Part shown: one piece after another, positions 12,874 through 19,222 of the stretch
Layout: every line of letters begins with the position of its first letter
Position numbering within the stretch: the first letter of the stretch is position 1
DNA from: a virus
IMG/VR virus record: IMGVR_UViG_3300027659_001993
Span: 1-22,846 of that record
Length of the DNA: 22,846 nucleotides
Strand: one strand, 5' to 3'
Notes under the pieces: model-generated
Told to the model about the DNA's origin: nothing
The model's input: the letters and a program-made list of their open reading frames with translations, nothing else
The model's database searches: none
Program-made: the position numbers and the translations under genes

Positions 12874-12881
12874 CTTATTAA

Positions 12882-12917
12882 GAGGGAAATTCCTTCTTAA
12901 GACAGGAGAAAAAGAAA
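12882..12917 (+). promoter_or_regulatory. Composite start-associated element 1 (palindrome, CTTAAGAC, RBS)
   Basis: An inverted repeat, GAGGGAA-A-TTCCTTC (12882-12896, one G-T wobble), runs directly into CTTAAGAC (12896-12903), then AGGAGAAAA as ribosome binding site, with ATG at 12918. The same order recurs before the next two rightward genes, which makes a functional unit likely. Similarity in layout to the start-associated sequences of certain mycobacteriophages is from general knowledge; the sequence is different. Confidence 0.65.
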
Positions 12918-13604
12918 ATGAAAACAGCAACAAAAAAGGCAACAAAAGCAAAAACCGCTGGAGATATTTTCCAAGCACCAAAAACTGAAAACCTTTCAGT
13001 TATTGTAAAAGCACTTGAAGAGGCTCACTCTTTAATCCAAAAAGAAACAGGAGCACCAAGGGCGGTTATTTCAATTGGACGCTCTTCAAAAGTCCACGGC
13101 TCTTTCACGCCTTGGACACCTTGGAAAGCAGAGGGCGAAAATTTCCACGAAATCTTTATTTCTGCCTCCTCTTTCGATAGGGGAGCAGAGGCAATCCTTG
13201 GAACTCTTTTACACGAAACCGCCCACTCTTTGGATTTGAAAGCGGGAAGAAATGGCGTCAGCCAAGAGGGCTATCACAATAAAACTTTCAAGGCCACCGC
13301 AGAAAGTCTTGGCCTAGAAATTGAGCAGGCAAAAAGAATTGGCTGGTCAACAACAAAAGTCCCAACATCTTGCATCAAAAGATGGGAAGAGGCCTTTGGA
13401 ATTATTGCAGAGGCTTTAAAGTTGGTGGCGGTCAATGACAGCGAAAAGCCAAAAGGCAGAAACAAAAACAACAAGGTGGCAATCTGCCAATGCGGAGAGA
13501 AAATCCGCTTAAGTCTTAAGACATACAATCTCACCCGCCCAGTTTGCCAAAACTGCGACAGTGAATTCAAACTAGAGGACGAGGAGGGAAACGGGGACGA
13601 ATAG
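12918..13604 (+). CDS. SprT-like zinc metalloprotease
   Basis: A 228-residue protein with the metalloprotease motif HETAH at residues 99-103 and a likely third zinc ligand, His120, in EGYHNKTF, the arrangement of SprT/Spartan-like domains. A C-terminal zinc ribbon follows: CQCG near residue 193 and CQNC near 216. Residues 1-14 are a Lys/Ala/Thr-rich basic leader that may contact DNA. Spartan relatives cleave DNA-protein crosslinks, while bacterial and phage SprT roles are less clear. It is the first gene of the rightward operon, with a strong AGGAGAAAA site and a composite start-associated element directly upstream. It contains CTTAAG twice in tandem (13508 and 13515), encoding part of the zinc-ribbon region. 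Confidence 0.85.
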   Translation: MKTATKKATKAKTAGDIFQAPKTENLSVIVKALEEAHSLIQKETGAPRAVISIGRSSKVHGSFTPWTPWKAEGENFHEIFISASSFDRGAEAILGTLLHETAHSLDLKAGRNGVSQEGYHNKTFKATAESLGLEIEQAKRIGWSTTKVPTSCIKRWEEAFGIIAEALKLVAVNDSEKPKGRNKNNKVAICQCGEKIRLSLKTYNLTRPVCQNCDSEFKLEDEEGNGDE

Positions 13605-13726
13605 TCCCCCTGTCCTATTGACAACAGCCCGCCAAGGTGGAAAAATCTGAGGTGCAAATCCTCAGACGGGCGCAGGGTTAGGGAGAAATTCTCCCCGACT
13701 TAAGACAGAAAAGACAGGGGCAAAAA
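13605..13726 (+). promoter_or_regulatory. Structured leader with tRNA-like arm and composite element 2
   Basis: GCCCG (13627-13631) pairs with CGGGC (13667-13671) and encloses a perfect 7-bp hairpin, TCTGAGG/CCTCAGA (13646-13652 and 13660-13666), with the 7-base loop TGCAAAT. The hairpin abuts the closing stem as a T-arm abuts an acceptor stem, but the D and anticodon arms are absent, so this is not a tRNA. The palindrome GGGAGAA-A-TTCTCCC (13681-13695), CTTAAGAC (13699-13706) and a GACAGGGG ribosome site before ATG 13727 follow. Confidence 0.5.
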
Positions 13727-13996
13727 ATGGCTACAAAATATAAGCACAGCGTCGAGATAGTTCACGAAGGGCACAGCGGAGTGATGGAGTTCAAATTCAC
13801 AGCCGACGAGAACACCGACCCTTCAAAAATCTTTGACCAATTCGTTGGTGAGTTAAGTATCATAATCCACGACGTCGAGGAATTAGAGTTTGAGGATTGC
13901 GACGGGTGCTGTGATGAATTTGACGTGGAGGAATTAATTGAGGACGAAAACGCAGGGCTTAAGTTTTGCAAACTTTGCAGAGAGGAAAACAAATAA
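13727..13996 (+). CDS. Acidic zinc-binding-like protein, 89 aa
   Basis: An 89-residue protein. Residues 1-50 have an alternating hydrophobic pattern fitting a small beta/alpha domain. Residues 55-89 are very acidic and hold CDGCC followed by CKLC near the end, a CxxC...CxxC pair that probably binds zinc. I do not recognise the family. It is preceded by a structured leader and a full composite start-associated element, and it carries CTTAAG in its own 3' end (13968). It may be a small DNA- or protein-binding adaptor; that is inference from the Cys pairs only. Confidence 0.75.
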   Translation: MATKYKHSVEIVHEGHSGVMEFKFTADENTDPSKIFDQFVGELSIIIHDVEELEFEDCDGCCDEFDVEELIEDENAGLKFCKLCREENK

Positions 13997-14111
13997 CGTC
14001 TTAAGACATAAAGCCCCTCACCCTTAACCAGAGGGCGCAGGTTCACGACCTAGCGGGGCACGGGTTGGAGGGAAATTCCTTCCGACTTAAGACATAACGA
14101 CAGGAGAAAAA
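13997..14111 (+). promoter_or_regulatory. Second structured leader and composite element 3
   Basis: It opens with GTCTTAAGAC (13998-14007). GCCCC (14013-14017) pairs with GGGGC (14055-14059) and encloses two small hairpins, CCCT/AGGG (14021-14024 and 14032-14035) and AGGT/ACCT (14039-14042 and 14048-14051), the latter with a TTCACGA-like loop. This again gives a reduced cloverleaf look. The palindrome GGAGGGAA-A-TTCCTTCC (14067-14083), CTTAAGAC (14086-14093) and GACAGGAGAAAA before ATG 14112 follow. The layout parallels 13605-13726. Confidence 0.5.
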
Positions 14112-14357
14112 ATGCTGGTAAGAATAGCAACGACGAACGACGCAAGCGGAAACCCTCGACGGGGCTGGTTAAGATTAACCGCAGGCGGTCAGGTTATAGG
14201 CTGGACAGAAGAGGGCTACCTTGGACGTGGTGCAATCGAAGGCTACGACGACGGCGAGAGCCCTACAATTTACGTTAAGCCTTCAGAGTATAAGCGTTTC
14301 AAAAAATGGGGCGAAACAATTCAAGAGAACTTTACAAAGGAGGAGTTAAATGTCTAA
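14112..14357 (+). CDS. Small phage protein, 81 aa, unknown
   Basis: An 81-residue protein starting MLVRIATTNDASGNPRRGW, with a strong GACAGGAGAAAA site 4 bases before the start. The body looks beta-rich (Gly/Tyr/Trp at turns), and the segment TIYVKPSEYKRFKKWG precedes a charged helix. I know no function; the pattern is of a short soluble accessory protein. Its end overlaps the next gene by 8 bases, and the AGGAGT of its own last codons serves as ribosome site for that gene. Confidence 0.8.
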   Translation: MLVRIATTNDASGNPRRGWLRLTAGGQVIGWTEEGYLGRGAIEGYDDGESPTIYVKPSEYKRFKKWGETIQENFTKEELNV

Positions 14358-14655: not shown

Positions 14656-14683
14656 TTGACACAATAGACAGTTGTGTTATAGT
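14656..14683 (+). promoter_or_regulatory. Strong sigma-70-type promoter with internal operator-like repeat
   Basis: TTGACA (14656-14661, a full -35 match) is followed after 16 bases by TATAGT (14678-14683, 5 of 6 to the -10 consensus). The inverted repeat ACACAA (14659-14664) with TTGTGT (14672-14677) fills the spacer, placing a possible repressor site exactly over the promoter. It lies 30 bases before the gene at 14713 and is the best promoter in the window, probably driving the rest of the rightward operon. Confidence 0.65.
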
Positions 14684-14712: not shown

Positions 14713-14925
14713 ATGGCACTATTGACAAATACAGGTGAAGGAAGATGGGAGACCCACGACGGGAAGTATTATTTGTATGGCGAATATACAGATAGAAACT
14801 CACGAGTGCGTTATTCAATCGGAAAACACACACCTCAAGGTGATGAGCATATACAAGATGTGCTAGGGCTACGACAAGCACGAGCATTCTTGCAGGACTT
14901 ACTACTTAAGACAGGAGAAAACTAA
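14713..14925 (+). CDS. Small phage protein, 70 aa, unknown
   Basis: A 70-residue protein with a GACAGGAGAAAAC ribosome site ending 4 bases before ATG. Residues 1-40 look beta-rich (repeated Tyr, Gly and Arg), and residues 45-65 form a helix. The tail LLLKTGEN is encoded by the dispersed start-associated sequence (14899-14918) that also supplies the ribosome site for the next gene, so the last residues reflect the signal rather than protein function. The first gene after the strong promoter at 14656. No family recognised. Confidence 0.75.
   Translation: MALLTNTGEGRWETHDGKYYLYGEYTDRNSRVRYSIGKHTPQGDEHIQDVLGLRQARAFLQDLLLKTGEN
14899..14918 (+). repeat. 20-base start-associated repeat, copy 1
   Basis: TTACTACTTAAGACAGGAGA occurs identically here, at 15304-15323 and at 16443-16462, each time ending in the ribosome site of the next gene. 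This copy overlaps the last codons of the 70-residue gene. Confidence 0.8.
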
Positions 14926-17165: not shown

Positions 17166-17389
17166 AACAATTTTCTGTGATTTACAATGTCAAAGGCACA
17201 AAGATTGTGGACATATATCTACCCGACGGTATCGAATTGCCTGAAGATTGGCAGAGCCTTACCGTTGAAGAGCAAGATGAATTCTTGTATGCTAACCAAT
17301 CTCATTCTGTCTTAAGAACAGAAGACCTAGACTATGGCAAAGTCTTTGAGATATGGGAGAACAAAGATGTTTTAAGGTTGGTTAAATGA
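17162..17389 (+). CDS. Small phage protein, 75 aa, unknown
   Basis: A 75-residue protein starting at GTG within the upstream stop. The sequence is acidic (LPDGIELPEDWQSLTVEEQDEF) with an N-terminal strand pair and a central helix. CTTAAG at 17311 encodes part of SVLRTED. It ends in an ATGA overlap with the whiB-like gene, so it is part of the same transcript and may be co-regulated with it. No family recognised. Confidence 0.65.
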   Translation: MKQFSVIYNVKGTKIVDIYLPDGIELPEDWQSLTVEEQDEFLYANQSHSVLRTEDLDYGKVFEIWENKDVLRLVK

Positions 17390-17628
17390 GCCTAGACATA
17401 GGCTTGTTGCCACCTGACTGGACTAAAGAAGCCTTGTGTGCTGAGGTTGACCCAGTAATTTTCTTTCCTGAAGCGGGTGAGAAAACTGCGGACGCAAAAA
17501 GAATATGCAGGGCTTGTGATGTTAAGACCCAATGCCTTGAATATTCCATAACCAACAACGAAAGGTTTGGTATATGGGGCGGATTAACAGAGTTCGACAG
17601 ACGAAGGCTCAGAAGAAAAGCAAGTTAA
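17386..17628 (+). CDS. whiB: WhiB-family iron-sulfur transcription regulator
   Basis: An 80-residue protein with the full WhiB signature: Cys18, then Cys41-x2-Cys44-x5-Cys50, which ligate a [4Fe-4S] cluster, the beta-turn GIWGG at residues 62-66, and a basic C-terminus (RRRLRRKAS) for DNA contact. WhiB proteins bind the principal sigma factor of actinobacteria and retune promoters. The family is almost confined to actinobacteria and their phages, and it is the main evidence for the host. The gene overlaps its upstream neighbour by ATGA. Phage WhiB proteins can repress host WhiB genes or block septation (known from mycobacteriophage TM4); a similar role here is inference. Confidence 0.9.
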   Translation: MSLDIGLLPPDWTKEALCAEVDPVIFFPEAGEKTADAKRICRACDVKTQCLEYSITNNERFGIWGGLTEFDRRRLRRKAS

Positions 17629-18530: not shown

Positions 18531-18607
18531 AAGACTTAATTAGTTTCATCTTTAGTTTTGGGAAGTTGTCCCTCACTGTCACTATGATTTTCATTATGCT
18601 TTTCTAA
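18527..18607 (+). CDS. Possible hydrophobic peptide, 26 aa, antisense to sigma-like gene
   Basis: A 26-codon frame whose ATG overlaps the FmdB-like stop (ATGA). The product (MKDLISFIFSFGKLSLTVTM, then IFIMLF) is almost wholly hydrophobic after Lys2-Asp3 and could span a membrane once. It lies antisense to the last 24 codons of the minus-strand sigma-like gene, which by itself could create a frame by chance. The coupling and membrane character are the only support. Confidence 0.4.
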   Translation: MKDLISFIFSFGKLSLTVTMIFIMLF

Positions 18608-19222
18608 ATCAACATCATTGTAAGGTTTAAACCCACCAAGTCTGCGGATTAATCTGTTAAGTGCACGACGTTGCCTCATACGAGCAGTATCTTCTGAACC
18701 TAATTCAAGAGTATCAGCAATCAACTTATATTCTAATGACTCTGCGTGTCTTAAGAATAAAATCTTTCTATCTTCTTTAGATAGTTTCCAATAAGCATAA
18801 TCAATCTCTATCATCATAGCCATAAGATTGCCACCCTCAGCAGGAGCAGAGGTTCCCCTGACGCCACCTAAATCTAATTTATGTCCAACATTTATCTCAC
18901 CCCTTAAGACAGAAGGCAACAGAGCCTCGACCAAACCCGCCTCATAGTAGTATAAATCACTGGTTTCGTAGCCACTTGTGTTGGCCTTCCACTCCTGACA
19001 ATAGTCTAAGGCGTGGTTGCGGAGAGAGCGATAGATTAAATTCTTTGCATCTTTTTCGCCAATCTTTTCCCATTCTTCCACTTTGTTCGGGTGTTCATAG
19101 AACCATTGGTACAAAGATTGTTTAATATCTTTTAGTTCAACCATTTGAAATTTCTTGTGATACTCAGAAGCAACAGCGTCTATCACATAATTCCATTCTT
19201 TAATTTTATTCCAATCCATCAC
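18536..19222 (-). CDS. Sigma-70-like (ECF-size) factor
   Basis: A 228-residue protein. Residues about 15-75 (EYHKKFQMVELKDIKQSLYQWFYEH then LIYRSLRNHALDYCQEWKA) resemble sigma region 2. Residues about 140-195 (YWKLSKEDRKILFLRHAESLEYKLIA, then a second helix with RMRQRRALNRLIRRLGG) resemble the region 4 helix-turn-helix that reads the -35 box. The tail is acidic. GTG at 19222 and ATG at 19219 are both possible starts; each overlaps the stop of the preceding gene. Known phage sigma-like factors redirect host polymerase to late genes; that role is inferred here. It is the last gene of the leftward replication operon, converging with the rightward one. Confidence 0.7.
   Translation of the reverse strand: MMDWNKIKEWNYVIDAVASEYHKKFQMVELKDIKQSLYQWFYEHPNKVEEWEKIGEKDAKNLIYRSLRNHALDYCQEWKANTSGYETSDLYYYEAGLVEALLPSVLRGEINVGHKLDLGGVRGTSAPAEGGNLMAMMIEIDYAYWKLSKEDRKILFLRHAESLEYKLIADTLELGSEDTARMRQRRALNRLIRRLGGFKPYNDVDLEKHNENHSDSEGQLPKTKDETN

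Follow-up and report, generated by a model that had tools for sequence, protein, structure and literature searches.

The window analysed here, a stretch of viral DNA of 22,846 nucleotides, carries near its middle the head of a rightward operon in which the first three genes are each preceded by a structured leader; genes, hairpins and tRNA-like elements are all given on the plus strand. Gene 1 (12918..13604) encodes a SprT-like metallopeptidase (Pfam SprT-like, E 2.8e-4, below the curated cut-off; PHROG 6361, E 5.9e-37). Gene 2 (13727..13996), an open reading frame of 89 amino acids, and gene 3 (14112..14357), of 81 amino acids and conserved in 44 viral contigs, follow it. Between the upstream stop codon and the leader hairpins of genes 2 and 3 lies a tRNA-like element (TLE) of 45-47 nt, here called TLE-A and TLE-B, which is absent from leader 1. 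The preliminary description of this locus, which recognized an inverted repeat, the motif CTTAAGAC and a ribosome site as a three-part element, thus missed the larger unit present upstream of two of the three hairpins.

Leader hairpins and the repeated motif beside them

The three inverted repeats are found exactly where they were first reported, with centres at 12889, 13688 and 14075, and CTTAAGAC begins after them at 12896, 13699 and 14086. The spacing of 0-3 bases claimed between repeat and motif applies to leaders 2 and 3 (gaps of 3 and 2 bases), but in leader 1 the two overlap by one base. The window holds 33 repeats with a single-base centre (arms of at least 7, G-T pairs allowed), and four of them adjoin one of the 21 plus-strand CTTAAGAC sites, against about 0.24 expected; these are the three reported and a fourth, intragenic, at 1733. 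The arms do pair as described, but they had been drawn too short, as folding gives stems of 10-11 bp that close a 3-nt loop and partly use CTTAAGAC itself. The resulting hairpins lie at 12878..12900 in leader 1 (10 bp), at 13676..13700 in leader 2 (11 positions, 4 bases past TLE-A) and at 14063..14087 in leader 3 (11 bp, 3 bases past TLE-B). A further hairpin, GGGGAC-GAATA-GTCCCC, can be read from the sequence upstream of TLE-A, where it overlaps the gene 1 stop codon (13593..13609), and is the same in one relative (L026).

Pairing in these stems is maintained while their sequence changes. Among six sequence-anchored variants of the leader of gene 1 orthologs, 100% of pairs are kept, two pairs are changed on both sides, and at one position A/U, C/G and U/A are all seen. 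When 15 hairpins, drawn from relatives as well as from all three leader types, were aligned on their loops by hand, 92.7% of positions were paired and 8 of 11 pairs were doubly changed, compared with 46-68% pairing in slid controls; of the two sets, the one of six sequences gives the cleaner test. The fold and covariation of the leader 2 and leader 3 hairpins agree with this picture. Covariation among related leaders was the check proposed when selection on an RNA hairpin was first suggested, and the arms of orthologous leaders do covary, which supports that suggestion. Since the changes are compensatory, the repeats act as RNA hairpins of 10-11 bp.

The motif at the base of these hairpins behaves differently. 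In leader 1 it forms part of CTTAAGACAGGAG, a start-associated motif with a Shine-Dalgarno core (12896..12908); in leaders 2 and 3 it occupies 13699..13706 and 14086..14093. In the form CTTAAGAC(A/G)GGAG it is fused with the Shine-Dalgarno sequence and is found before six rightward starts. It had been described as one part of the three-part element but is not specific to the leaders, as it also occurs elsewhere, on both strands and within genes, as part of the palindrome GTCTTAAGAC. The hexamer CTTAAG is present 35 times in the window against about 7 expected, and GTCTTAAGAC itself 10 times (for example at 1740, 10650, 12669, 19628, 20041 and 21252), strongly enriched on both strands within leftward genes and in gaps. 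Leftward coding sequence contains five copies against 0.16 in synonymous-codon shuffles, and one site inside the terminase gene is retained throughout a large clade. As the sequence of GTCTTAAGAC is conserved on either strand, within genes as well as between them, the palindrome is best interpreted as a site for DNA binding, and CTTAAGAC/GTCTTAAGAC is probably a separate DNA-level repeat, a putative operator, which overlaps the base of the hairpin. A 35-kb relative (L182+L183) has its 10 copies of GTCTTAAGAC all within the middle 10 kb. Two short open frames of the window, at 14350 and 14527, start with CTTAAGAC read as codons (MSNDLRHK and MVDDLRHK), so that the motif occurs just inside starts as well.

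One copy of GTCTTAAGAC, at 13998..14007 between the gene 2 stop and TLE-B, fills the place held in other phages of the family by TGTGA-N6-TCACA. Sites of the CRP/GlxR type have a fixed spacer of six, and the spacer of this second palindrome is 6 in 32 of 32 copies, with none at spacers of 3-5 or 7-10. An initial reading of the stop-proximal TGTGA..TCACA as an RNA hairpin was dropped on account of this spacer and the conserved arms, in favour of a CRP/GlxR-type DNA site. Such CRP/GlxR-like palindromes occur at L031 3364, L048 7943, L186 1435, L152 22684 and other places, beside tRNA-like elements and also in the divergent promoter region of related phages. They offer a standard for the idea that the inverted repeats of the leaders are themselves DNA sites for a dimeric protein. 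Although the repeats are palindromic at the DNA level, their arms vary from site to site and from relative to relative in a compensatory way that includes G-T pairs, whereas the operator-like sites (TGTGA-N6-TCACA and GTCTTAAGAC) keep both sequence and spacing. A dimer-binding site built of arms that change freely while their pairing is kept is therefore highly improbable, contrary to what had been entertained at first.

Of the proposed parallel with the extended start-associated sequences (ESAS) of mycobacteriophages, only the general layout stands. Like the SAS and ESAS of Cluster K, the leaders combine inverted repeats with a conserved motif at the ribosome site before a subset of rightward actinophage genes. 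ESAS of Cluster K are imperfect 17-bp inverted repeats with a genome-wide consensus and spacers of 4-13 bp (PMC3203893); the window shows neither a genome-wide repeat consensus nor such spacers, and its arms are about 10-11 bp long, enclose a 3-nt loop and differ among the three sites. The 13-bp SAS GGGATAGGAGCCC, which lies at the ribosome site in Cluster K, has no match in the window with up to two mismatches allowed. The system described here differs from SAS and ESAS in having another motif, variable and covarying arms, and an added tRNA-like element.

A tRNA-like element without an anticodon arm

The TLE has an acceptor-like stem of 7 bp, a middle arm that is short and a T-arm ending in a T-loop; an anticodon arm is absent. 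In TLE-A (13627..13671), recognized by folding and by a structural descriptor, the acceptor-like stem is GCCCGCC/GACGGGC, the T-arm is GAGG-TGCAAAT-CCTC and the middle arm is reduced. In relatives its T-stem is swapped between GAGG/CCTC and GGAG/CTCC, and the TLE-A copies of relatives match the covariance model R1 only weakly. TLE-B (14013..14059), supported by its R1 match (46.1 bits, E 2.5e-9), by folding and by ortholog alignment, has the stem GCCCCTC/GCGGGGC, the middle arm CCCT/AGGG and the T-loop TTCACGA, and is followed by A73-C74.

Between relatives the sequences of these elements diverge widely and the anatomy is constant. A descriptor based on structure alone recovers 40 units in relatives, compared with 3 when the sequence is reversed. 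Across twelve TLE cores, 97.2% of cells are paired, double changes are seen in 12 of 15 pairs, and the covariation score is 0.78, compared with 0.26 for shuffled and at most 0.17 for slid alignments. A second set of nine, partly overlapping the first, is 100% paired with 9 of 15 pairs doubly changed, and RNAalifold arrives without guidance at the same fold. Both parts of the module, TLE and hairpin, are RNA structures.

The positions that do remain constant are those of the tRNA-like ends and of the T-loop. Among 80 distinct cores, G1-C72 is present in 77, A73 in 77 and C74 in 79, and the T-loop has C56 in 75 and R57 in 76. The determinants of tRNA processing (an acceptor/T-stem stack of about 12 bp, a T-loop, G1-C72 and a purine at 73) are found in most of the 80, with the T-stem short in some. 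The TLE therefore has tRNA-like geometry and end nucleotides. A73-C74 is conserved, but position 75 is C in none of the 80, so that CCA is unencoded and the 3' RCCA of RNase P substrates is lacking throughout this set. RNase Z substrates are tRNA ends without an encoded CCA, and it is this kind of end that the TLE matches. Departures from a regular tRNA include the missing T54 in 21 of 80 T-loops, a T-stem of just 3-4 bp in many copies and a middle arm that differs from a regular D-arm.

The TLEs are not tRNA genes with a cloverleaf of D-, anticodon and T-arms: ARAGORN detects no tRNA gene in the window or in the scanned loci of relatives, Rfam gives no tRNA match in the window, and R1 matches none of the 22 annotated tRNAs of Immanuel3. 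No Rfam family matches the TLEs at threshold; the best match is mascRNA-menRNA (RF01684), at 21.7 and 20.3 bits, below the gathering cut-off of 42.5. A three-way junction with a T-loop in a 5' leader could also suggest a ligand-binding riboswitch or an attenuator. This is very unlikely given that no invariant core able to form a ligand pocket is present, that several copies stand before different genes and that, of two terminator-like sites between 12300 and 14700, neither lies at the leader hairpins, where no terminators were found.

Promoter-like sequences lie close to some of these elements. GATACT stands about 20 bases upstream of the leader 1 hairpin, and in orthologs of this leader (L148-L150) TTGACC and GATACAT, a sigma-70-type promoter, lie immediately upstream of the hairpin. 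Only TLE-A is overlapped by a promoter-like pair (TTGACA-17-AAAAAT, 13618-13646), which is conserved in relatives, and TLE-A may thus have a double role. Many TLEs carry TTGAC in their middle arm; this was considered as a promoter -35 and set aside, as inspection by eye showed no -10 to match it at a distance of 16-18 nt. L065, L066, L072 and L077 belong to a lineage that has a promoter downstream of the TLE, ahead of the following gene; in L065 9125-9176, L066 9190-9241, L060 363-414 and L072 4479-4533 a TLE is followed by a sigma-70-like promoter, and the ribosome site does not directly adjoin. A strong promoter-like sequence is also found in the window at 14656-14683 (TTGACA-16-TATAGT, 11/12, with TG), before a gene at 14713.

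Recurrence of the module and its proposed role in mRNA punctuation

The module of TLE and hairpin recurs in dozens of related contigs. R1 has 71 matches in a set of 81 loci, 53 in a set of 35 and 58 in a set of 29 (the sets partly overlap), with 1-4 matches per contig of 28-46 kb, clustered at the head of the rightward operon and limited to its first few gaps. Neither the TLE pattern search nor the search for terminase relatives had a match in bacterial genome contigs. Cultured relatives are the Planktophila phages E7 and F5 (OX376640 and OX376641), isolated on 'Ca. Planktophila' LanE-43 (PMC10202952). Their terminase is 78% identical to that of the window, they carry three and two TLEs, respectively, and the window's WhiB and sigma-like genes fit the description of their family. 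The sigma-factor-like gene lies at 18536-19222 and the WhiB gene at 17386-17628, as in E7 and F5. The phage family with TLEs infects abundant freshwater Actinobacteria (Nanopelagicales).

The stop codon is followed in fixed order by (operator palindrome or hairpin), TLE, hairpin, Shine-Dalgarno sequence and start. A reading frame precedes 98 of 100 TLEs, with a median of 9 nt from its stop codon to the first TLE base, and a ribosome site and start lie downstream of 97 of 100, with a median of 47 nt to the start codon. For the 80 distinct cores the stop-to-TLE gap peaks at 7-8 nt, with an operator palindrome often within longer gaps, and by a strict test for a 5-bp stem only 51 of the 80 copies have the 3' hairpin, the rate in shuffles being 11%.

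This order, the CCA-less tRNA-like ends and mascRNA-menRNA as the closest Rfam family together suggest cutting by RNase P and RNase Z and a hairpin cap. We infer that the polycistronic phage mRNA could be cut at the TLEs by these two enzymes, leaving a hairpin-capped downstream message, and assign this reading a probability of roughly one half. Host RNase P would cut in front of the acceptor-like stem and RNase Z behind the discriminator A, so that the freed downstream cistron would begin within a few bases of a stem-loop, which may shield it from 5' decay and keep the ribosome site single-stranded. The lack of a TLE in leader 1 would be explained by its hairpin, which is close to the promoter-made 5' end in any case. 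Bacterial RNase P prefers RCCA, and the proposal is genuinely weakened by the unencoded CCA, by T-stems that are short and by the confinement of the elements to a few gaps. The irregular middle arm, the T-loops that lack T54, the promoter overlap of TLE-A, the promoter after the TLE in the L065 lineage and the presence of the hairpin in only 51 of 80 copies also count against cutting.

The spacing could also be accounted for by an uncut structure. It is conceivable, though somewhat unlikely, that TLE and hairpin remain in place as a folded 5' leader bound by the ribosome or by a protein (for instance a host protein that binds tRNA or a phage protein that binds RNA) and control translation or re-initiation of the next gene. 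A position 7-8 nt past the stop is close to the leading edge of a terminating ribosome, and the fixed distances to stop and start codons and the restriction to few genes would fit such a role; against it, no specific protein site is visible, sequence conservation being almost nil beyond the tRNA-like ends and T-loop, and the genes behind the elements are unrelated. The several differing copies per genome and a tRNA-like acceptor and T-arm without an anticodon could, in turn, point to a trans-acting tRNA mimic, excised or standing, such as a decoy that draws off a host enzyme or defence directed at tRNA, for which the gap is merely a convenient location. This appears improbable, as a trans-acting RNA would need neither the downstream hairpin nor strict stop and start spacing.

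Cutting at the TLEs would have parallels in known systems. As in the tRNA punctuation of mitochondrial polycistronic RNA, tRNA-shaped elements lie between genes and proposed cutting at both ends would free mRNAs; mitochondria use real tRNAs, whereas the phage elements have no anticodon arm and occur only at the head of one operon, and their cutting is putative. mascRNA-menRNA, released by RNase P and RNase Z, is likewise tRNA-like with a reduced anticodon region inside a longer transcript, but forms the 3' ends of vertebrate lncRNAs and has no sequence kinship with the TLE, which instead precedes a downstream gene. Phage transcripts are also cut by bacterial host RNase P in phi80 M3 RNA, P1/P7 C4 RNA and T4 gene 32 mRNA (PMC11143913), although these are single cases without a repeated modular intergenic element and hairpin. 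No account of tRNA-like punctuation in phages was found in the open-licence literature searched.

The broader proposal, which we hold at slightly less than even odds, is that this Nanopelagicales phage family has evolved anticodon-less tRNA mimics as reusable punctuation, each with a 5'-protecting hairpin, so that host tRNA-maturation enzymes would cut the transcript into single-gene messages. The TLEs form a strongly covarying RNA family not found in Rfam or in the literature searched, and the existence of a cultured phage-host pair makes cutting directly testable. If true, this would be tRNA punctuation outside organelles, in viruses of very abundant freshwater bacteria, and would provide a compact, portable module to separate genes in bacterial operons.
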